Position numbers and translations under genes: made by a program. A stretch of 33,128 nucleotides of DNA, taken from positions 1 to 33,128 of the IMG/VR virus record IMGVR_UViG_3300023184_000348; one strand, 5' to 3'. Below are positions 2,354-29,427 of this stretch, in pieces. The notes under the pieces were generated by a model that was not told the origin of the DNA, searched no databases, and saw only the letters and a program-made list of their open reading frames with translations. Numbering within the stretch: the first letter of the stretch is position 1; every line of letters begins with the position of its first letter. Origin of the DNA: a virus.

Positions 2354-4465
2354 TTAGTTCACCACCAAATGTGTGATTTGGGCATCCACAAAATCAAAAT
2401 GTTCCTTACCAGCATCGGTGATATATAGGACAAATGACCTGTCATTGCCCTTATTCTCAATCCAGCCGCCTGTGGATAACTTTGTGATTCCATCCCCAAT
2501 TGCATCCTTTGTGCCGCTGACACCATCCTGAATTGACCTGCGATTTGCCCCAGGATGGTTGTGAATGAACTCGGCAATCTCTTTCAGCTTTTTGAATTCC
2601 TTGTTGGCCTCAAATTCATCTTCAGGCATTGGAACCCCAATCACATACTCCATCTGCGCCCTAGTCGAGTCAATGGTAAAAATGGCAGCCTCTTGGGTTC
2701 TATCTGACTTACGCCACATACCTGCAATCTTGCGGATGAACCCAGGGCGATCTTTAGTAACTCTCATTGTCAGCGTTCCCGTGCGCCCTGGTGCCAACGC
2801 CTCTAATGGCTCTACGAGATAGGCAGCGCCATCAATGGTGGCAAGTTTTGCTTGCCCGCCAATGGCAAACCGCCCGCGTGTTTCTGCGTTCTTTGTAATG
2901 TGGTCAATAAGCACAACGGCAGCGCCACTGGCGGTGGCTACTGTTCTTGGAAATATGCGCATCCAGCGGGTGATGGCATCGTTATCTTTTGTCTCGCCAC
3001 CCCACATTGTCAGGGATTCGGTGACACCATCAATAATGATCAGTTCAGCGCTATCAGCTTCAAGAATAGCCTGCCAGTAAGGGTCATCGGCATCGCGTGG
3101 ACCGTCAGGGCGGATGTAGGTGAAGTATTGCAAAAGGTTGGCACGGCTGACACCTAGCGCCTTGAGTCGGTTCACAATGTCAATAGCATCTGATTCAAAG
3201 TCAATATAGATAACCTTTTTGTCAGCCTTGAGACATTCTGCGGTGGCAATCTGAGCAACCCAGGATTTACCCGATTCGGATTCACCGTAAATGGAATGAA
3301 CTCGGCCAGTGTAAATAAGGCCGTGACCATCTGAGCGCTTCAGAATGGTTGCAATTGGGGCGGCAAATAGGCCGTCATAGTAATCCTTTAGTTGGATTGG
3401 TTTCCAACTTGATTCATCCTCTGCCAAATCGCCTTGTGTGGCTTGTGGCGGGGTCTGTAGGGCATTTGCTGGCATCAGATTATTGCTTAAATCAAAAGAA
3501 TTCAGCCCCTGCGCCCCGTAGCCTTGATTTCGCAGATCGTTGGCTGCTGCCTTGAAATCTCCGCCGTGTTTGAGTGTTGCATAAAAAGCAAACTTGGAAT
3601 ATGAAGTTTCTGCATCAAATTGCGTTGATGTTGAGAATACATAGAACTTATCGTTGCCGTTGAAGTTGGTGGTGGCCGATATGCCTTCGGCTTTGCCTGG
3701 TCTGCGCCAAATCGTTGCTTCGCTCTTGCGATAGACAACGCTCCAGCCAAGAGGCAGTAGCAATTCTTCCCAAGTGGTGCGGGAATTGTAATCATCGCCA
3801 GGTGTCAGGATGCCATCGTGCTTTGTTGCAACTTCTTGTTGGATGGATTCAGCTTTAGGCATCTCATCAAACATTGCAAAGATATTGTGAAGCGCGGCCC
3901 GTTGTTCCATTGTGATTGTCGGGATGGTTTCAATTGAGCCACCTATAAGTGTCCAATTGCCCCCGCTTGGGTGGGTAGTGCCACCTGAAGGTGCGGTAAT
4001 GGTAAATCCACCTTCAGATCGAGTCTCTGCCCAAACATCAACCCCGCCATTTTCGCCAGGCTTGCGTGCCAACTTTGTGTTGCCTGGCAATTCGCCGTTT
4101 GATACGCGGTAAAGCCAATGAAGCCCACCTGAAGGTGTGATTTCGACATAACCAGCGTTGAGGCGCTGCCACAAATCGCCAAGCCCTGAATTGTTTGCAA
4201 TCTCTGCAATATCAAGGTGCATCTTTTGAGCTACGGCGCGACCTTCAAGTTCAAGCATCTCTAAGTTGCCTGATACCTTGCCAGTAATTACACCAATGCC
4301 ATTAACATCATCTTTGAACCACATCAACAATTCATCTGCAATGGGCAACTCTTGCTGAAACCGCTGCCAAGCAAATGCAGGCCGTTTGGAACCATCATTG
4401 GCAACTGGAACTACTGAAATTCCTTGTGCAAGAAATCGCAAGGCGATTGGTAGTAGTTCACTCAT
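2354..4465 (-). CDS. Primase-polymerase / AAA-type helicase replication protein
   Basis: A 703-residue replication initiator-helicase. Residues 1-200 resemble the bifunctional primase-polymerase (PrimPol) domain, with the GIGVITG strand at 57-63 and GGLHWLYR at 113-120. The usual DxD-type acidic pair appears as glutamates in NLEMLELEG (67-75). A RepA-like AAA_25 ATPase follows, with Walker A GESESGKS at 394-401, Walker B LIIID at 475-479, and VLIDHITKN as the next conserved strand. The last 90 residues look like a winged helix (HNHPGANRRSIQDGV). The ATG overlaps the stop of the Mom-like gene by four bases and has AAGGGGG seven bases upstream. No DNA polymerase gene is visible, so host polymerase is probably recruited. 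Confidence 0.85.
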   Translation of the reverse strand: MSELLPIALRFLAQGISVVPVANDGSKRPAFAWQRFQQELPIADELLMWFKDDVNGIGVITGKVSGNLEMLELEGRAVAQKMHLDIAEIANNSGLGDLWQRLNAGYVEITPSGGLHWLYRVSNGELPGNTKLARKPGENGGVDVWAETRSEGGFTITAPSGGTTHPSGGNWTLIGGSIETIPTITMEQRAALHNIFAMFDEMPKAESIQQEVATKHDGILTPGDDYNSRTTWEELLLPLGWSVVYRKSEATIWRRPGKAEGISATTNFNGNDKFYVFSTSTQFDAETSYSKFAFYATLKHGGDFKAAANDLRNQGYGAQGLNSFDLSNNLMPANALQTPPQATQGDLAEDESSWKPIQLKDYYDGLFAAPIATILKRSDGHGLIYTGRVHSIYGESESGKSWVAQIATAECLKADKKVIYIDFESDAIDIVNRLKALGVSRANLLQYFTYIRPDGPRDADDPYWQAILEADSAELIIIDGVTESLTMWGGETKDNDAITRWMRIFPRTVATASGAAVVLIDHITKNAETRGRFAIGGQAKLATIDGAAYLVEPLEALAPGRTGTLTMRVTKDRPGFIRKIAGMWRKSDRTQEAAIFTIDSTRAQMEYVIGVPMPEDEFEANKEFKKLKEIAEFIHNHPGANRRSIQDGVSGTKDAIGDGITKLSTGGWIENKGNDRSFVLYITDAGKEHFDFVDAQITHLVVN

Positions 4466-5088
4466 TCACTTGCCCCCTTTGGATACGGCTTACTTTCTAA
4501 TTGCAATTGCTTTAACAATGTTTTCTTATGGTTCTTACCATTAGGCAGTAAATATAAGTACCTATGTTTGCCTTCGCGTTTGACTGGTTGCCAGCCCATT
4601 TCTTTTGCATCGGCAGGTTTTATATTGACACCATTTTGGCGTGGGTGCCTAAGTCTGCCATCTTGATCTAAATAAAATGTAGCCTTGCCTGAAGTGCCTG
4701 TGTAAATAGCATTTGTTGCTTGGTAAATAGTTCCCAAATGTCCTTCAGTTGCATCAGCAAATGATAAAACTGCATTGTAATTAGGCCGATCTTTTTTAAG
4801 TGCCTTCAATGCTCGAACTATAAACCAAGATTCACTATTTTTAGGCACCTCATCTAGTAGCACCAGCCGATGAAGTTCAGTAACTGATCTCTTATGCTCT
4901 AAACCAAACACGCTTGCACATACAGCTTCACTGCAAGGGTTTGCAAATGCACACACCCCAACCAAATCCAAACCGTCAAACATCCCATAAGTCATTGGTC
5001 CGTTGTGAATACCGTGTGAATAATGATGTGTTTTTACAAACTCTTTACCCAATTTTGAAGGTATTTTATCCACCCAATAGTTGCTCAT
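4462..5088 (-). CDS. Mom-like DNA adenine modification protein (GNAT fold)
   Basis: A 208-residue protein resembling the phage Mom family, whose Mu member converts adenine in DNA to N6-methylcarbamoyladenine and so protects against restriction. Visible landmarks are THHYSHG (residues 20-26), VCAFANP (45-51), ELHRLVLLDE (71-80), and SFADATEGHLGTIYQATN (109-126), the conserved acyltransferase-like core, followed by IYTG. The basic C-terminus suits DNA binding. The ATG has AGAGG six bases upstream. The gene is coupled by four-base overlaps both to the 38-residue gene upstream and to the helicase downstream. The segment is distinctly AT-rich: about 35% GC in one counted 60-base line (4741-4800), against 55% in a line of the helicase gene (4021-4080). 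The enzyme assignment is from motifs only. Confidence 0.75.
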   Translation of the reverse strand: MSNYWVDKIPSKLGKEFVKTHHYSHGIHNGPMTYGMFDGLDLVGVCAFANPCSEAVCASVFGLEHKRSVTELHRLVLLDEVPKNSESWFIVRALKALKKDRPNYNAVLSFADATEGHLGTIYQATNAIYTGTSGKATFYLDQDGRLRHPRQNGVNIKPADAKEMGWQPVKREGKHRYLYLLPNGKNHKKTLLKQLQLESKPYPKGASE

Positions 5089-5201
5089 CCATTGCCTCTG
5101 ATGAATTCTGCAATATCATCTTTTGTTTGATATTCAAGCCAATCAACCAATTCAATTTCACGGGCAATTAAATCTCTGATTTCTGAAGATATTTTAGGCA
5201 T
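5085..5201 (-). CDS. 38-residue protein between methyltransferase and Mom-like genes
   Basis: The minus strand from the ATG at 5201 encodes 38 residues beginning MPKISSEIRDLIAREIEL and ending FIRGNG. It overlaps the methyltransferase stop by eight bases and the Mom-like start by four (ATGA), so it is embedded in the translational chain. It looks like a single amphipathic helix pair. Mu mom needs the small partner Com for translation, but this protein has no cysteines and does not resemble Com. Function unknown. Confidence 0.55.
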   Translation of the reverse strand: MPKISSEIRDLIAREIELVDWLEYQTKDDIAEFIRGNG

Positions 5202-6600
5202 CTTCCCCCACCATCCGCGAGATAATCCAATCAACAACAGGCACGGCTACCGCGTTGCCCATTTGCTTGTATCTATGCCCATCAGTTTGCCCATCAGTCC
5301 AGTTATCAGGGAATCCTTGAAGGCGTTCACATTCAATTGGCGTTAGTCTGCGCACAACTGAAGATGCAAAAACAGTTCCCATTTTATCTAAATCTGAGCC
5401 TGTTCTTAAAGTTTGATTTGTTTCTGAAATTGTGTGGTTGTAAGCATCAAAAGCAAGAATTGGAGAATTGTTATTTGTCATTCCAGCTTTAAGAGTTCCT
5501 ACGCCTTCAGAATAATTAGCAAAATCTGATGGTGAAAAAGCAACTGCCATTCCTGCGCCCCCTGTTCTAAGAGTTGGCGAGTTTGTTTCACTTGCTTGCA
5601 CATCTAAACCTTGAGTATGACTAAAAATCATAGGCACAATTACAACTCCGTGCCGTGCCTGAGAACTTGAAGTTAATGTATAACCTGGTTCATTAGCCCC
5701 TAAAAATCCTGAACCGCTAGGTCCAGCACTATCATTTCTACCAATCATTGCACCGTGCATAGGATAAGCAAGCATTGGCACATTATTGCCACCTGTACCC
5801 ATTGTGGCTGTCAAAGTGTTAACAGTATCGTTTTGAATTCTTGCACCATCTTCCCTGTGAGGTGCAAATAAAACTAAATGACCACTATTTACATCTTGAT
5901 TTACAACAGTTGATTTGTGATATAACTCTGCTGGCAAGCAATTAGCTATTTCTCCACCATTTGAGAGCATTGCTCCAACGCTTTTTGTAATTGATTTGGT
6001 AACACTTTTCCGCGTTTTTCCGCCCTGCGCAAGATACCCTGCGCGGCCTTCGGCGATAGCGAGTATTTCTTCAGGTGATCTCCCTGAGTCTCCAAGACAT
6101 CCGACAATGAACACTCGACGGCGGCGTTGGGGTACTCCGAAGTGTTGAGCATCAAGTACCCTGTAGGCAACGCGATACCCGCGTTCGACCAACGCTTCAA
6201 GAACAACGGCCATGTCTGCACCGTTGTTTGAGTTAAGTAAACCAGGGACATTTTCAAGGATAAAATTTTGCGCTCTTGTTTCGTCAAGCAATCGGCAGAT
6301 TTCCCAGAATAATCCTGATCGAGAACCACCCAATCCTGCTCGTTTTCCAGCCACTGATAAATCTTGGCAGGGGAATCCACCTGTGATGATTCCGTTTCTT
6401 GGTTCAAATCCTGCTGCGATAAGTTGTTCACCTGTTACCCCCGTTATATCTCCAAATATGGTTGATTGTGGAAAATGCTTCTTCAATACTTCTTGTGCCT
6501 TTTTATCTATCTCAACTGATGCAACTACTTTCACATCATTGCGTTCAAGAGCTAAATCAAAGCCACCAACACCTGCGAATAAACTAACTGCAGTTCTCAC
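5194..6600 (-). CDS. DNA cytosine-5 methyltransferase
   Basis: A C5-cytosine methyltransferase of 468 residues. It has motif I at 6-18 (SLFAGVGGFDLAL), the catalytic Pro-Cys loop GGFPCQDLSVAGKR at 74-87 with Cys78 as nucleophile, ENVPG at 116-120, QRRRRVFIVG at 158-167, and near the C-terminus LTPIECERLQGFP and YKQMGNAVAVP (motifs IX and X). The target-recognition region is long and holds repeated units of the form TLT-x-GGN-x-P, as in multi-specific phage enzymes. A GTG at 6600 is preferred over the ATG at 6615: it has GGGGGG six bases upstream and overlaps the FmdB-like stop as GTGA, while the ATG leaves motif I atypically far in. It probably protects phage DNA from host restriction together with the Mom-like protein. 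Confidence 0.93.
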   Translation of the reverse strand: MRTAVSLFAGVGGFDLALERNDVKVVASVEIDKKAQEVLKKHFPQSTIFGDITGVTGEQLIAAGFEPRNGIITGGFPCQDLSVAGKRAGLGGSRSGLFWEICRLLDETRAQNFILENVPGLLNSNNGADMAVVLEALVERGYRVAYRVLDAQHFGVPQRRRRVFIVGCLGDSGRSPEEILAIAEGRAGYLAQGGKTRKSVTKSITKSVGAMLSNGGEIANCLPAELYHKSTVVNQDVNSGHLVLFAPHREDGARIQNDTVNTLTATMGTGGNNVPMLAYPMHGAMIGRNDSAGPSGSGFLGANEPGYTLTSSSQARHGVVIVPMIFSHTQGLDVQASETNSPTLRTGGAGMAVAFSPSDFANYSEGVGTLKAGMTNNNSPILAFDAYNHTISETNQTLRTGSDLDKMGTVFASSVVRRLTPIECERLQGFPDNWTDGQTDGHRYKQMGNAVAVPVVDWIISRMVGEDA

Positions 6601-6767
6601 TTGCTTCCCCCCCATCCTTCACCCTTGAAGATGGTTCCCCCAAGTGAATACTTGCGTTGCATTAACTTCTTCTTGCAACCTTCGCAGATGATTCGCTTTT
6701 CATCATCCATTTCAAAAAACACTTCAGCAATATGCCCACAATCGCAAGTGAATTCATAAAAAGGCAT
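6597..6767 (-). CDS. FmdB-like zinc-ribbon protein
   Basis: The minus strand from the ATG at 6767 gives 56 residues. MPFYEFTCDCGH, a second pair CEGC at residues 28-31, and the ending GGTIFKGEGWGG match the FmdB-type zinc-ribbon family (Zn_ribbon_8), in which short N-terminal strands carry the first metal ligands. The family is thought to be regulatory, but its function in phages is not established. The gene ends in a four-base GTGA overlap with the preferred methyltransferase start, so it is probably the first gene of the FmdB, methyltransferase, small protein, Mom and helicase chain. Confidence 0.75.
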   Translation of the reverse strand: MPFYEFTCDCGHIAEVFFEMDDEKRIICEGCKKKLMQRKYSLGGTIFKGEGWGGSK

Positions 6768-8585: not shown

Positions 8586-9017
8586 TTAGTAATAGTTTTT
8601 TTGCTTAAAATGATTCCAAGCCCCACACGGACCTGATGAACCATATTTTCGGCCAATGTAGGCCAGTGCTGCAATCGTTTGGGCAACAGTTGATTTGCTG
8701 CGCTTCATTCCAAGATTGCGATAAGTGCCATCCAGTAATTGACCAACTCCGCTGGCCGTACTGGTTGGGTTGTCCTTATCCTGCCAAGCGCTTTCTTTGC
8801 TCATTAGGGCATTGAAACACTTGAACTGGTGTGCCGTCAGTAGCTCTCGCGCTACTTCCTTTGGATTCACCTGCATTAAATGTGGCCGATCTTTGTAGAT
8901 AACCAATTCAGGTACTGCAGGTTGAGCCGTAATTGCTTGAACCATCAATGAAGTGCTAACGCTAACCACCACGATCAGTGCCAGCCTTTTGATGAGTCTT
9001 TTGTCTGTTGGTGTAAT
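8586..9017 (-). CDS. Secreted lysozyme/transglycosylase-like protein, probable ATT start
   Basis: The domain resembles the small SLT/lysozyme fold: FNALMSKESAW carries the likely catalytic Glu, then NPTSTASGVGQLLDGTYRNLG and a C-terminal AWNHFKQKNYY. The first conventional start is a GTG at 8972 (128 residues), but it lacks a Shine-Dalgarno sequence and cuts a signal peptide in half. The frame is open upstream and encodes KRLIKRLALIVVVSVSTSL, a textbook basic-hydrophobic leader. An ATT codon at 9015-9017 lies exactly seven bases after AAGGAG (9025-9030), within the end of whiB. Starting there gives 143 residues with a probable cleavage after AITA. It may remodel peptidoglycan early or during exit. 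The ATT start is inferred. Confidence 0.7.
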   Translation of the reverse strand: MTPTDKRLIKRLALIVVVSVSTSLMVQAITAQPAVPELVIYKDRPHLMQVNPKEVARELLTAHQFKCFNALMSKESAWQDKDNPTSTASGVGQLLDGTYRNLGMKRSKSTVAQTIAALAYIGRKYGSSGPCGAWNHFKQKNYY

Positions 9018-9424
9018 GGTGCTGCTCCTTGTTCAGTTGCAGTCAACTTTTTTAATATTCGCCTGACATAGCCAGGTGAAGTATTAAGTCGAACTGCAAT
9101 TTCGTTGGCAACTAACCCTTTTGCGTGCAGTTGGATAATTCGTAACGCCATCCCTTTGAAGGCATAATCCTTATCTTTTGCAACAACGGCATCTCTTTCG
9201 GCTGGCGTTGAGCCACCCCAAATACCGTGGGTTATTTGCTTTTCTAGTGCGTACTCCAAACACTCCTTACTGTGAATACAACTTGCGCATATTGCTTTAA
9301 GTTGGTGCAGTCTTTCTGCCTCTTGTGTGCGGTTATCAGGAAAGAATAAATCCTTATCCTCAATCTCTGCACACTTGGCTTCATCAAAGCGGGGTAGATC
9401 AACAAAGAAATCAAAAGTTTTCAA
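8975..9424 (-). CDS. WhiB-family iron-sulfur regulator with C-terminal helix-turn-helix
   Basis: A 149-residue protein with the four WhiB cysteines at 18, 46, 49 and 55 (one, then CxxC, then C after five) and the GIWGG turn at 67-71. These ligate a 4Fe-4S cluster and contact sigma factor in host WhiB proteins. Unlike a minimal WhiB it continues into a helix-turn-helix at about 94-127 (IIQLHAKGLVANEIAVRLN, then SPGYVRRILKKL). The start is a TTG overlapping the stop of the resolvase-like gene (TTGA). Phage WhiB proteins are known to interfere with host WhiB regulation; with its own DNA-binding domain this one might act directly on phage or host promoters. The family strongly supports an actinobacterial host. 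Confidence 0.92.
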   Translation of the reverse strand: MKTFDFFVDLPRFDEAKCAEIEDKDLFFPDNRTQEAERLHQLKAICASCIHSKECLEYALEKQITHGIWGGSTPAERDAVVAKDKDYAFKGMALRIIQLHAKGLVANEIAVRLNTSPGYVRRILKKLTATEQGAAPLHQQTKDSSKGWH

Positions 9425-9771
9425 TGCTTTTCATCCAGCCATTGTTGAAGGTCTTGGATTACCCAAGATTGTTCAATCCCAGCGCTACGGCGCTTGAGAA
9501 TGACATAATGCAATGGAACTTCGGCTAAACCGCGTGCCTTTGCATAGTTTTCTGCCTCAACTTCAGCTTCACACCAAAATTGAGGAAGGTTAGGTTTTCC
9601 CCAGTTCTTTAACTCAAGGATATATTGCTTGCCAGCAATGATTGCGACTATATCGCCTTCATCGTGCTTGCCAGCCTTCACCAAACGCTCACATAAAGCA
9701 CCAGCACTGCGAAGCCAACGCATAACATCGGTTTCAAATTGTGCGCCTTTGCGCCCGTTGGGATTAGCCAT
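9421..9771 (-). CDS. Holliday-junction-resolvase-like PD-(D/E)XK nuclease
   Basis: A 116-residue protein with the small archaeal-type resolvase pattern: an N-terminal helix carrying Glu13 (GAQFETDVMRWL), HDEGDIVAI with Asp40, and YILELKNWGK with the ExK pair Glu53 and Lys55. Length and motif order match phage and archaeal Hjc-like resolvases that cut four-way junctions. It sits in the recombination and regulation operon beside the WhiB gene, whose TTG start overlaps its stop. It could equally be a structure-specific nuclease of another specificity. Confidence 0.7.
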   Translation of the reverse strand: MANPNGRKGAQFETDVMRWLRSAGALCERLVKAGKHDEGDIVAIIAGKQYILELKNWGKPNLPQFWCEAEVEAENYAKARGLAEVPLHYVILKRRSAGIEQSWVIQDLQQWLDEKH

Positions 9772-9775
9772 TGAG

Positions 9776-10141
9776 TTACTTAACCGCCTTCAATGATGGG
9801 TAGTTGGTGCCAGCCTCACGACTGATGCGGGCAAACTTAACTGCTCGAATCAAATCTTCAGCCAAAATAAGTGCTTCTTGCTCTGTCATATTGCAAAGCA
9901 ATGGTGCGTTCTCGCTCAAATTATCGCGGGCGTTATCTAAGTGTTCAAAATAGTTTTCAGATTTCACACTGCGATCTGCAGAGTGGCGCAACAAATCCAA
10001 ATCATCTAACTCGTATGCCCCAACAATATCTTGAACCAAATCTTTTACTGCATCTTGTTCTTCAAGATATAAAGCAATACTGCCATCTGAATGATTATGT
10101 ATTGAAAATAGCGGTTCGCGTGGTTGCTTTTCAAAAATCAT
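9776..10141 (-). CDS. Acidic helical protein of unknown function
   Basis: A 121-residue acidic protein with no recognised family. The first 30 residues contain two probable strands (PLFSIHNHSDGSIALYLEE). The rest is helical, with DAVKDLVQDIVGAYELDDLD and EALILAEDLIRAVKFARIS. The ATG overlaps the stop of the membrane microprotein upstream by four bases (ATGA). Four bases separate its stop from the resolvase-like gene, so it belongs to the same operon. An antagonist of a host protein would fit its size and charge, but there is no direct evidence. Confidence 0.5.
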   Translation of the reverse strand: MIFEKQPREPLFSIHNHSDGSIALYLEEQDAVKDLVQDIVGAYELDDLDLLRHSADRSVKSENYFEHLDNARDNLSENAPLLCNMTEQEALILAEDLIRAVKFARISREAGTNYPSLKAVK

Positions 10142-10294: not shown

Positions 10295-10858
10295 TTAGAC
10301 TCGCTGAACTTCAATCTGAAAAGGTGGGGCGGTGTTGATGTCATATTTGGCGGCAATGGCAAGGGCTGAGTGGATAGCATCGGTTACGCTGGCGATTGTG
10401 GCCGCCTCAATGCCGTGTTCAAAGGTCAGTGCATAAGTTAAAACGCCCAACGCATAATCTGAGCCTGAGCCAATGGCATAAATGCCGTTTTCGTTTTGGC
10501 TTATGCTCATATCACTGCCGATTTCAAAGACATTGCCAGCAAATACGAGCAAGAAACCAAACATAGCTCCATCCCTGTTGAAGTCATACTCACCCAGTTT
10601 GAAGGCCTTAATAATGCTTGGGATAACCTTTTTGCCCATAAACTTAACAGGGTCGGTGCCATCATAAAGAGGCGGTTTCCAGTCGTACATCAAAATATCG
10701 CCTGGGCGTGCCTCGCCTCGAACTCCCAAGAAGTATTTCCCAATTTTGACAATTTTAGGGGTCGTAGGGGAAATGATGATTCGGTCACCGTCTGTGATCT
10801 GAGAATCTGCCCCTAGCACGACACCAGCGGGCGTTTGGCAGGCAATTATGGTGGTCAT
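10295..10858 (-). CDS. HslV/proteasome beta-like Ntn-hydrolase peptidase
   Basis: A 187-residue protein that starts MTTIIACQTPAGVVLGADSQ. After loss of Met it would expose Thr1. Asp17 (GADSQ) and Lys34 (TTPKIVKIG) follow at nearly the spacing of the Thr1-Asp17-Lys33 active site of HslV and proteasome beta subunits. The segment YAIGSGSDYALGVLTYAL matches the conserved AIGSG-x-YA turn of HslV. The length is close to HslV's. A longer frame to 10957 exists but would bury the threonine. The ATG has no ribosome site; AGTGTA on the plus strand at 10865-10870 (TACACT on the coding strand) lies six bases before it, so the message may be leaderless. No ATPase partner is encoded. Substrates are unknown; host-protein turnover is a guess. 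Confidence 0.8.
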   Translation of the reverse strand: MTTIIACQTPAGVVLGADSQITDGDRIIISPTTPKIVKIGKYFLGVRGEARPGDILMYDWKPPLYDGTDPVKFMGKKVIPSIIKAFKLGEYDFNRDGAMFGFLLVFAGNVFEIGSDMSISQNENGIYAIGSGSDYALGVLTYALTFEHGIEAATIASVTDAIHSALAIAAKYDINTAPPFQIEVQRV

Positions 10859-10864
10859 TGGCCA

Positions 10865-10870
10865 AGTGTA
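10865..10870 (-). promoter_or_regulatory. Possible -10 element for a leaderless HslV-like transcript
   Basis: On the coding (minus) strand TACACT is followed by six bases and then the ATG at 10858. That spacing would place transcription initiation at the A of the start codon. No purine-rich ribosome site is present, and leaderless messages are common in actinobacteria. The two GGCGTGA copies at 10877 and 10887 overlap the spacer and -35 area, so a bound regulator would block the promoter. Confidence 0.4.
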
Positions 10871-10876
10871 GGGCAA

Positions 10877-10954
10877 GGCGTGAAAAGGCGTGAGAACCCT
10901 AGCAATTCCCCAATTTCTTCGGGTTCCCACGCCTAGATTTGAGCCTAACACGCC
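10877..10954. promoter_or_regulatory. Operator-like array of GGCGTG motifs in the divergent control region
   Basis: GGCGTGA occurs at 10877-10883 and 10887-10893, ten bases apart. The reverse form CACGCC occurs at 10928-10933 and 10949-10954, 21 bases apart, so successive copies lie on one face of the helix. GGCGTGAGAACCC (10887-10899) and GGGTTCCCACGCC (10921-10933) form a 13-bp inverted repeat with one mismatch. The array sits between the HslV-like gene and the divergent plus-strand island, making it a good candidate for control of both. The ribbon-helix-helix protein of that island is the obvious candidate ligand. Confidence 0.55.
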
Positions 10955-11004
10955 CAAAAGCCGTTATCAAATTGTTATGTGTCTTGGGGTCAAATGTTGC
11001 GTAT

Positions 11005-11016
11005 CTGTATATACAG
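11005..11016 (+). promoter_or_regulatory. 12-bp palindrome containing a TATATA -10-like box
   Basis: CTGTATATACAG is a perfect palindrome. Its TATATA centre could be the -10 box of the plus-strand island, with TTGGGG at 10984-10989 as a weak -35 at about 18 bases. A repressor binding the palindrome would directly occlude it. Downstream, ATTGGG (11033-11038) and CCCAAT (11048-11053) form a small hairpin in the presumed 5' leader, shortly before the ATG at 11069. Confidence 0.4.
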
Positions 11017-15472: not shown

Positions 15473-17647
15473 TTATTGTGCTTGCATTATTTGTAAAATT
15501 GCAATGTCATCTGCCCATCTTAGCCCAGTTGTTGCTGAACTATCAGGAACGAGAACCTGCCCATTTGCGCCAATTGGTAGGCGTGTTACTACGGTTGAGA
15601 ATGTAGCAAGATCACCTTTTGTTGTTACCGCTGAAGGACCAGTTGGTCCTGTTGGTCCAACCGGTCCAGTTGCACCGATTGGTCCTGTTGCACCTATCGG
15701 TCCAGTTGCTCCAACAGGACCAGTAGCCCCAACACTGCCAGTGGCACCAACAGGGCCAGTAGGTCCAGTAACACCTGTTGCTCCAATCGGTCCAGTTGCA
15801 CCTGTTGGTCCAACAAGATTTACACCTGCAGGCCATACACCTGCAGCTTTTGGACCAAAGATTTGATTAGTAGCGGTGTTGATGTAGAAATCACCATTAA
15901 CACCTTCGGTTGTTGGGTTAACAGTTCCACTAAGGACTGTATAACCTGCAACACCAGTTGCACCAACAGGTCCAGTTGCACCGATTGGTCCAGTAGCACC
16001 TACTGCTCCCTGGATGCCTTGAATTCCTTGTGGTCCAGTTGCACCTGTTGCACCCGCAGGTCCAGTTGCACCTGTTGCTCCATCAATGCCTGCAACACCA
16101 GTTGCTCCAATTGGACCAGTAGCACCAATTGGTCCAGTTGCACCAACAGGTCCAGTTGCACCAACATCGCCTTGAACGCCTTGTGGTCCAGTTGCACCGA
16201 TTGGTCCAGTTGGACCTGTTGCACCAGTTGCTCCATCAATACCTGCAACACCTGTTGCACCGACTGGGCCAGTGGCACCTATCGGACCCGTTGGCCCTGT
16301 AGCGCCAGTGGCACCGATTGGGCCAGTGGCACCAGTCGGGCCAGTGGCACCGATTGGACCTTGTGGGGCTTGCAGTGAGGTAATTACATATGAATAATGT
16401 TGTGAGCCTTGTGTGTACCAAGTAAGGCTTTTTGCACCACCTGATTGAACCGAACCGTAGATTTCAACGATCATTCGATTGGTTGGGTCAACAGTAGTTG
16501 ATGGCAAAACAATCTCTGTTTTAACCTCAACAGGATTTGTTGAGTTGTAGCTCACAAGTGTTGGGTCAGTATCACCAATTGTTGAAAGAACTGTTCCTGC
16601 AGAATTTGCCAATTTTAAGCGTGCAAACATTTGCACATTGTCAGCATTATTTGTTTTTAAAGCATAGAAATAAAAACGCTGAATACCTGCAGGAATGAGT
16701 GAAAAGGCAAATTGCGGTGTTATATATGACTGAATAAGAACTGGTGTAACTGTTGCTGAAATTGCAATTGATTGCTCTGCAGCCGTAACTGGTTCAGTTC
16801 CTAATTGCTTGAATCCAGTTAACTCTGTGACTGTTTCGTTGAAATAGTAAAAACGGCCAGTTGTGTAACCTTGAGGACCTGTTGCACCTGTTGCACCTAA
16901 TGGTCCAGTTGCACCTGTAGCTCCGATTGGACCAGTAGCACCTGTTGCACCAATTGCGCCTGCAGTTCCTGTTGCACCTACTGGACCAGTTGCACCTGTT
17001 GCGCCAATTGGACCTGTAGCACCAGTTGCACCTGTTGGACCTTGAATTTGACCAGTGTTAAGCCACGCTGAAGTTGAAACACTCCACACATACAGATCAG
17101 CACCGACAATGTAAGCATCGCCAGCATTTCCTGTTGGGTGAGCAGCAACTAATTCTGCATATGTTGCATAAGAACCAAGAATTGTAAGCCCAACACCTTG
17201 AGCGCCAGTTGCACCTGTTGGACCAGTTAAACCTTGTGGACCTGTAGCACCAGTTGCACCAGTAACTCCAGTTGCACCTTGCGGTCCAGTTGCGCCAACA
17301 TTTCCTTGCACGCCTGTTGCGCCAGTTGCGCCAACTACTCCCTGAATACCTTGAATACCCTGGATGCCTTGAGGACCTGTTGCACCTGTTGGGCCAACAA
17401 CACCTGTTGCACCTGTTGCACCAACATTTCCTTGAGGCCCAGTTGCACCTGTTACTCCAATTGAACCTGTAGCACCAGTTGCACCTGTAGCACCCGTGGC
17501 ACCTACTGTTCCTTGAGGACCAGTTGGACCAGTTGGACCTTGTACGCCTTGTGGACCTTGAAGGTTTGAAATAATAACTTCGGCAGGACTTGCAATTTCT
17601 GCAATAACATCAGTTGTGCTTGATGATACATAAACGATTGAACTCAT
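15473..17647 (-). CDS. Collagen-like tail fibre
   Basis: A 724-residue protein with several long Gly-X-Y tracts, dominated by [14 protein letters not shown] and GPQG units. They begin near residue 30 and alternate with at least two non-repetitive domains. One, of about 50 residues, starts [16 protein letters not shown]. Another, of about 160 residues, starts near [17 protein letters not shown] and looks like a beta-sandwich. The N-terminal 28 residues probably attach to the tail. Phage collagen-like tracts form trimeric stalks. Here Pro and Thr fill the X and Y positions, so stability may come from Thr glycosylation, which would suit the glycosyltransferases in the same operon. The repeats make the locus prone to length change by recombination. 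Confidence 0.85.
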
Positions 17648-28473: not shown

Positions 28474-29427
28474 TTATTTTGTGTTGTTAATAATTGCTTG
28501 AGCAAGGCGCAGGGAAATTGAACGACCTGCAGTTGCTGGCATATCTGTTGGCTCTAACTCAACTTCAGGTTCTTCAACCTCAACAGTTGGGGTAAGTGTG
28601 TTAAGCCCTAGTAATACTTCAAGCATTGTCTTGCCTTCTTCAAGGCTATCGTAAGACTCTGAAACCTTTTCAAGAATTGAATTGATAACAAGAGTTGATT
28701 CGCCATCTAGTGCGCGACCTTCTTTGAGAGCATCCATTGCATTTTGCAATGCTTCGCGTGCTTCAACTGTTGTTGTTGGGTAGGCAGGGTAAGTAACCAC
28801 TGAAACATCTCCATCTGCTAGTGAAACTTCAGTTAGGGTGCGAGTTGAGCGATCTTCGCTCCACTTTTGACGAATGACACGGAAAGCAAAACTCATTTGG
28901 TCAACATCTCCGCGCTCAACTAACTTGTAAAGGTCGCGGCCTTCGCTGGTATCTGCAATCTCTGCATCCATAAACAAACCACGATCATCTTCAATTAATG
29001 TAAGTGTGCCGTTCTTTGTGCGAGCTAGTGGCAAACCTTCGTGGTTAATAAGCAAACGCACATCAGGTGTTTCGCTCAAGGTTTTACGAAAAGCACCTGG
29101 GGCGATTGTCTCTTTGAATGGTAGCGGAACGCTTGCATCATTAAACACTGCAGCATAACCGCGTAAGCGCATTGTTCCATCTTCGGCTTGGCGTGCTTCA
29201 ACATCTTGTACCGTAAATGTACGGCGTTCAATTTCTTTCACTTTGCTCCTTGAGTTAACTTCCCCGCCTGGTTCCATATCTTCAGAGATTGAAACTGCAA
29301 CCATTTGATCTATTGCTTCTTGTTTTGTACCGTGACAAGCAAGTGTTGTATAAGAACCATCTGTTTCTTGCTTTACTGTTGCCCATCCTGAGCAGTCGGC
29401 TTGTTTATCTGAAACAAAATATGGCAT
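28474..29427 (-). CDS. HK97-family prohead protease
   Basis: A 317-residue protein with an N-terminal 50-residue cysteine-containing module (SGWATVKQETDG, CHGTKQEAIDQM) of the type often fused to actinophage proteases. The protease follows: RLRGYAAVFNDASVPLPF, INHEGLPLART with catalytic His129, and GDVDQMSFAF with catalytic Ser179. The C-terminal helical tail (from about 225) may serve as scaffold. It matures the capsid by removing the delta domain. The start lies just behind the portal stop, with GAGG upstream. Confidence 0.92.
   Translation of the reverse strand: MPYFVSDKQADCSGWATVKQETDGSYTTLACHGTKQEAIDQMVAVSISEDMEPGGEVNSRSKVKEIERRTFTVQDVEARQAEDGTMRLRGYAAVFNDASVPLPFKETIAPGAFRKTLSETPDVRLLINHEGLPLARTKNGTLTLIEDDRGLFMDAEIADTSEGRDLYKLVERGDVDQMSFAFRVIRQKWSEDRSTRTLTEVSLADGDVSVVTYPAYPTTTVEAREALQNAMDALKEGRALDGESTLVINSILEKVSESYDSLEEGKTMLEVLLGLNTLTPTVEVEEPEVELEPTDMPATAGRSISLRLAQAIINNTK

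Follow-up and report, generated by a model that had tools for sequence, protein, structure and literature searches.

Group I of the proteasome homologues comprises HslV, BPH, AAH, CPH, and PPH (Fuchs et al. 2021, PMC8665760). That survey already documented proteasome homologues encoded by phages: both PPH and AAH were carried by phages, none of the new homologues had a co-occurring AAA+ partner, and AAH was not seen in any Actinobacteria-specific phage (PMC8665760). The superfamily also includes connectase, a member turned monomeric ligase (PMC8665760). Our literature search found no paper reporting the function of a phage-borne proteasome homologue, and the branch borne by actinophages has hitherto been uncharacterized. 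Homologues in isolated actinophages, already annotated as “protease,” belong to the same protein family (PHROG 1040) and the same actinophage branch as the peptidase described here. They are encoded by the Planktophila phages E7 and F5 (OX376640-1), Actinomycetia phage DSL-LC01, Arthrobacter phage Hum25, and Microbacterium phage Pumpernickel. Phages E7 and F5 were isolated on Ca. Planktophila LanE-43 (PMC10202952).

The DNA analyzed here (the window) is the whole 33,128-nt sequence of a freshwater virus, IMG/VR record IMGVR_UViG_3300023184_000348. The original prediction had placed in it a peptidase gene whose product begins TTII after removal of the initiator Met, and this open reading frame is present as described (Table 1), with the N terminus MTTIIACQ. 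The protein matches Pfam PF00227 (Proteasome, E = 7e-8), being the only match to this family in the window genome, and PHROG 1040 (“peptidase HslV family,” E = 3.7e-27). Since the peptidase lacks a propeptide, Thr1 would be exposed by the methionine aminopeptidase of the host.

Table 1. Coordinates of the peptidase locus and of other features of the window
Feature	Position	Strand	Remarks
Primase-helicase with RecA-like AAA_25 ATPase domain	2354-4465		
WhiB-type regulator (actinophage marker)	8975-9424	-	
RusA-like Holliday junction resolvase	9421-9771	-	
Next operon gene, no known family	9776-10141	-	
Single-TM micro-ORF, 30 aa	10138-10230	-	MFWLGLVCGIIGILAVYAIIVAAFEIGEGQ; own Shine-Dalgarno; previously unannotated
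Proteasome-like threonine peptidase CDS	10295-10858	-	187 aa; ATG immediately 5' of Thr; no propeptide
Asp166-like codon (residue 173)	10340-10342	-	Invariant in the actinophage branch
G-S-G turn codons (residues 130-132)	10463-10471	-	G130 and G132 invariant; S131 is Ser or Thr
Gly47-like glycine codon (residue 48), candidate oxyanion hole	10715-10717	-	Invariant in the actinophage branch
Lys33-equivalent codon (residue 35)	10754-10756	-	Invariant; aligned with beta5 Lys33
Asp17 codon (residue 18)	10805-10807	-	Invariant (61-row alignment)
Catalytic Thr1 codon (residue 2)	10853-10855	-	Invariant in 61 relatives
TACACT, -10 of leaderless promoter	10865-10870	-	6 nt before the peptidase ATG
RNA hairpin, 13-bp stem, AAUU-GGGG-AAUU tip	10887-10933	-	Predicted 5' end of the P1 transcript
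Predicted promoter P1: TTGATA, 17 nt, extended -10 TGTTAGGCT	10942-10970	-	Layout kept in 28/30 aligned relatives
Perfect palindrome CTGTATATACAG	11005-11016	.	Between divergent gene blocks; recurs in many relatives' upstreams
S78 prohead protease, separate from the peptidase	28474-29427	-	

An AF2 model built from 16 close sequences was poor (pLDDT 50) and was superseded by a run on the 61-row alignment, which gave a pLDDT of 93.1 and a pTM of 0.88. This model carries the strands and the four main helices of the family, including a helix at residues 70 to 88, and no additional domains. In a Foldseek search against the PDB, the top match was BPH of Thiobacillus denitrificans (5ovs; E = 7.9e-11, TM 0.74), followed by HslV and 20S beta subunits. 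More than 1,200 PDB matches were obtained at E ≤ 0.001 and, among the matches listed, all were proteasome, HslV, or BPH structures. The search of viral structures showed that the same fold occurs in many phages. Likewise, the family profile run against solved chains ranked BPH of Cupriavidus (5ovu) first (E = 2.8e-11) and HslV next. As modeled, the protein is an alpha-beta-beta-alpha Ntn fold and a member of the PF00227 superfamily, as the original prediction had implied. Its HslV label fared less well: the protein scored 32.1 bits, compared with an equivalog cut-off of 137 bits (NF003964), and 30.1 bits, compared with 157.75 (TIGR03692), and its nearest solved relative is BPH by both profile and fold. 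HslV orthology was accordingly rejected.

BPH (5ovs, 5ovt, and 5ovu) shares with the phage peptidase Thr1, Asp17, Lys33, the Gly47-like glycine, the GSG turn, and Asp166, and apparently acts without an unfoldase of its own, as is proposed for the phage peptidase. The two differ in sequence (about 19% identity) and in setting, BPH being cellular and not phage-borne, and the ring of the phage protein is a putative one. HslV (ClpQ) is close in fold, catalytic residues, and subunit size, but the Escherichia coli enzyme has a Cys at the Asp166 column, where the phage peptidase has Asp, and no HslU-type AAA_2 ATPase (PF07724) was found in the window or in seven sister genomes. The 20S beta subunits (actinobacterial PrcB, archaeal, and eukaryotic beta5) have the same fold and catalytic residues, whereas the phage peptidase has neither a propeptide nor an alpha subunit and is 16 to 19% identical to them.

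In the phylogenetic tree, the window protein falls within an actinophage branch (90/99), together with the IMG/VR sets, the proteins of DSL-LC01, E7, Hum25, and Pumpernickel, and one from contig L217. Gly47, Asp166, and a Thr-Thr pair following the start are common to all members of this branch. A separate clade (100/99) holds rhizobial, Paraburkholderia, Streptomyces, and Bacillus plasmid proteins, along with proteins of Geobacillus, Moorella, Vibrio, Aeromonas, and Xanthomonas phages. Its members mostly start with MTC, have Ser or Thr in place of Gly47, and lack Asp166, unlike the window peptidase. This clade probably corresponds to the AAH of Fuchs et al. 2021, an identification based on host range. 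A cellular AAH-like homologue, in a Sinorhizobium fredii plasmid (L359, 3001-3546), lies between nifQ and iron-sulfur/nifS genes. AAH and PPH resemble the window peptidase in being compact, phage-encoded group I proteins without an AAA+ partner; PPH differs in having about 140 aa and no helix H2, while the window protein has 187 aa and the helix at residues 70 to 88. BPH is not part of the actinophage branch; a long branch connects it with Tunturi_5. Some of the deep joins of the tree are long-branch joins of which we are unsure. On sequence grounds, the peptidase thus appears to be a proteasome-like protein of group I, on the HslV/BPH side, in an actinophage-specific branch distinct from the AAH-like clade.

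Relatives were also sought in genome collections. The mixed alignment (A4) had no stretch conserved enough for scanning, and the first genome-collection scan returned no peptidase relative. The second returned a single one, on contig L217, which had been binned in a “cyanobacterium” MAG. Apart from L217, the peptidase profile had no match in the 291 genomes of that MAG's phylum, which lends no support to a relationship with CPH. The contig holds the only WhiB gene of the MAG, and we therefore read it as a misbinned actinophage. In this large phage contig (6216-8555), the peptidase follows a thioredoxin gene, and genes for WhiB and a GroES-like Cpn10 lie immediately upstream.

Scans of IMG/VR gave 53 and then 148 close relatives (best 80 of 148), as well as 244 more distant ones (best 80 of 244). 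Conservation was read from an alignment of 61 relatives, reaching down to 27% identity to the window peptidase. The original prediction of an intact active site, with Asp17 and Lys34 at HslV-like spacing and an AIGSG-x-YA turn, was borne out. The catalytic set, Thr, Asp, and Lys included, is invariant in these relatives, and in the window protein the turn reads AIGSGSDYA (residues 128 to 136); the lysine, which is Lys34 in Thr1 numbering after a one-residue insertion relative to the canonical Lys33, is nevertheless aligned with it. There are 13 invariant columns in the alignment (M1, T2, T3, Q8, D18, K35, G48, R51, P80, G130, G132, D173, and P179), and the residues named beforehand as catalytic (T2, D18, K35, G48, and D173) all fall within these 13 of the 187 columns (P of about 7e-7), which rules out a chance resemblance. 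Among the 215 loci parsed for the N terminus, for which start codons were picked next to T, S, or C and none failed, the first residue after the start M, V, or L was Thr in 214 and Ser in 1. The alignments show an active site that is complete as far as sequence can tell, comprising Thr1, Asp17, Lys33, the Gly47-like Gly, GxG, and Asp166. The median pairwise dN/dS of the peptidase in the close clade was about 0.14, showing purifying selection at the level of the sequence. The strict conservation of Thr1, Asp17, and Lys33, together with this selection, favors a working enzyme over a dead decoy.

The peptidase gene heads a minus-strand block, as originally described, with small plus-strand genes diverging from it. 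The HNH genes found at the start of the window adjoin, in relatives, the gene for the terminase small subunit found at its end, so the window represents an almost complete genome in circularly permuted form. Its best terminase relatives belong to Pontimonas phage phiPsal1 and the phiC31 group; with the WhiB gene, they point to an actinobacterial host. The peptidase was found in all 13 contigs of at least 28 kb with a related terminase (window included). Five contigs below 28 kb with a related terminase lack it, and both of the two that were checked end beside the locus. The peptidase is a core gene of this phage lineage, and its branch is abundant in freshwater actinophages. The homologue of E7 and F5 is 34% identical to the window peptidase; since these phages grow on a culturable Ca. 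Planktophila, the use of a proteasome-like protease by a phage is directly testable. At this level of identity (about 34%), the homologues of isolated actinophages differ from the window in their neighborhoods (portal module, tRNA cluster) and have no micro-ORF behind the peptidase. A search of a defense-system library gave no match. Elsewhere in the window, a Mom-like DNA modification protein (4462-6615, minus strand) adjoins a DNA methyltransferase, the two being likely an anti-restriction pair, and the tail region encodes a collagen-like repeat protein of 724 aa (15473-17647, minus strand).

A promoter of the gene's own, also part of the original prediction, is strongly supported by sequence comparison. 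The close clade has 76 distinct upstream sequences, and in every one a TANNNT motif stands 6 to 8 nt before the ATG, against a background of 6%; none of the 76 has a Shine-Dalgarno-like motif there, pointing to a leaderless promoter. Leaderless layouts are common in actinobacteria. A simple promoter scan called no promoter upstream of the peptidase; TANNNT, as well as the TTGATA-17-TGnTANNNT arrangement described below, was recognized only by comparing relatives.

We consider it reasonably probable that the protein is a working homo-oligomeric, ATP-independent threonine peptidase that acts early in infection with a role in takeover or recycling. Its subunits would form a homo-oligomeric ring, hexameric or heptameric and single or double, with Thr1 inside. 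Gene order and promoter, the two indications of timing, suggest that it would be made early in infection, from a gene that heads the replication/takeover block behind a conserved leaderless promoter. It could then cleave peptides and unfolded or specifically recognized host proteins without an ATPase of the phage's own, and the gain may lie in amino acid recycling and/or in the removal of host proteins during takeover.

The ring might instead depend on a host AAA+ unfoldase or adaptor (e.g., ARC/Mpa or a Clp ATPase) and redirect host energy-dependent proteolysis to chosen targets, which we regard as unlikely. HslV and the proteasome normally need an unfoldase, yet neither PF07724 (HslU/Clp) nor PF00004 (ARC/Lon/FtsH type) was found in the window and its seven sister genomes, and actinobacteria have Clp ATPases and often ARC/Mpa. 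The absence of HslU and ARC/Mpa had been predicted and stands; the wider claim that the phage encodes no other ATPase does not, given the AAA_25 domain of its primase-helicase. The AAA matches found in larger phages showed no tie to the peptidase. Dependence on a host unfoldase is, however, at odds with the lack of any AAA+ partner co-occurring with the new homologues of Fuchs et al. (PMC8665760).

Another alternative concerns the ring itself. Within the actinophage branch, the H3-H4 segment (family residues 132 to 173) varies in length from 25 to 43 residues, and this variation makes a conserved double ring doubtful. In proteasomes, the H3-H4 region makes ring-to-ring contacts. Among close relatives, its lengths step by about five residues (31, 36, and 41). 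A highly variable contact region, as well as the precedent of connectase in the superfamily (PMC8665760), would suit a specific endopeptidase, a ligase, or another Ntn hydrolase working as a monomer or small oligomer and not compartmentalized. Nevertheless, the full proteasome active-site set is invariant, including Asp166 and the Gly47-like Gly, and the subunit is compact, its AF2 model lacking the two-helix S3/S4 insertion that defines connectase, all of which makes a noncompartmentalized enzyme improbable.

A role in processing capsid or virion proteins is very improbable for the window peptidase, although it finds some echo in its relatives. In Planktophila phage E7 (L432, 5698-8036; OX376640.1), the portal gene is followed, 17 nt on, by the start of the peptidase homologue, and a search for head proteases of the S78 or ClpP type gave none, so the homologue might be used in head assembly there. 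Several distant members of the branch have a portal-like gene and a calcineurin-like phosphoesterase gene beside the peptidase. The window, in contrast, has an S78 prohead protease of its own, which makes head processing by the peptidase unlikely and rules out that it replaces a ClpP-type or S78 head protease. Moreover, its gene lies about 18 kb from the head genes, has its own promoter, and leads the replication/takeover block. Finally, the originally proposed co-assembly with host 20S or HslV subunits, as a decoy or poison blocking or retargeting them, is extremely unlikely: the phage peptidase and host beta subunits have a common fold and actinobacterial hosts may have a 20S proteasome, but the invariant catalytic residues and the dN/dS of 0.14 are in keeping with an active enzyme, its nearest relatives of solved structure are homo-oligomers, and identity to 20S beta is only about 16 to 19%.

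The peptidase has two previously unreported neighbors, a hairpin RNA and a micro-protein, which offer new handles on its regulation and location. Upstream of the leaderless promoter lies the predicted promoter P1, whose extended -10 reads TGnTANNNT across relatives, and the hairpin begins 7 or 8 nt after this -10. In the hairpin alignment, 99.2% of the cells are paired, and changes on both sides of the stem (covariation) exceed those of all shuffles. The non-Watson-Crick cells comprise 38 G-U/U-G against 0 A-C (and 3 C-C), indicating that it is as peptidase-strand RNA that the structure is conserved. Its fold has a z score of -4.2, and Rfam gave no match. In all 60 IMG/VR contigs that have the core motif of the hairpin, the motif precedes the peptidase start, or a repeat insertion in front of that start. 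The hairpin could act as a small RNA, as an attenuator, or as a 5' leader. In four loci (L018, L031, L309, and L342), an inserted repeat of CCACCGCCACCACCGCC units separates the hairpin from the peptidase start. Farther upstream, the palindrome CTGTATATACAG is a possible operator.

Downstream, the TGA of the micro-ORF overlaps the ATG of the next gene (ATGA). The micro-ORF lies 60 to 72 nt after the peptidase stop in all 115 close relatives with enough sequence, each time with a Shine-Dalgarno and one hydrophobic segment, in 57 distinct sequences ranging from MFWLGLVCGFIGIICLYLIIIAAFEIGEGR to MELFLLGTGTVLAMLLIFWMVFSNDDFLGDELRKSPFDGDNNA; it was found behind none of the 67 peptidases of the distant set. 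A dN/dS of 0.15, with third codon positions the most variable, indicates purifying selection. Co-transcribed with the peptidase, the TM micro-protein could serve to tether or gate it, or could be an unrelated member of the operon, and their adjacency could be explained by shared operon order. It is a tentative and rather unlikely proposal that the two form a module in which a self-compartmentalized threonine protease, which the 30-residue protein would dock to or gate at the membrane of the host, is controlled by a leaderless promoter and a hairpin RNA and would serve unfoldase-free host takeover. A separate search for the micro-protein found it behind the peptidase in 68 of 69 places, the remaining one being a partial, chance-like match. 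In addition, there are 15 loci where the micro-ORF accompanies the peptidase and the next two operon genes, the one at 9776 and RusA, were not detected.
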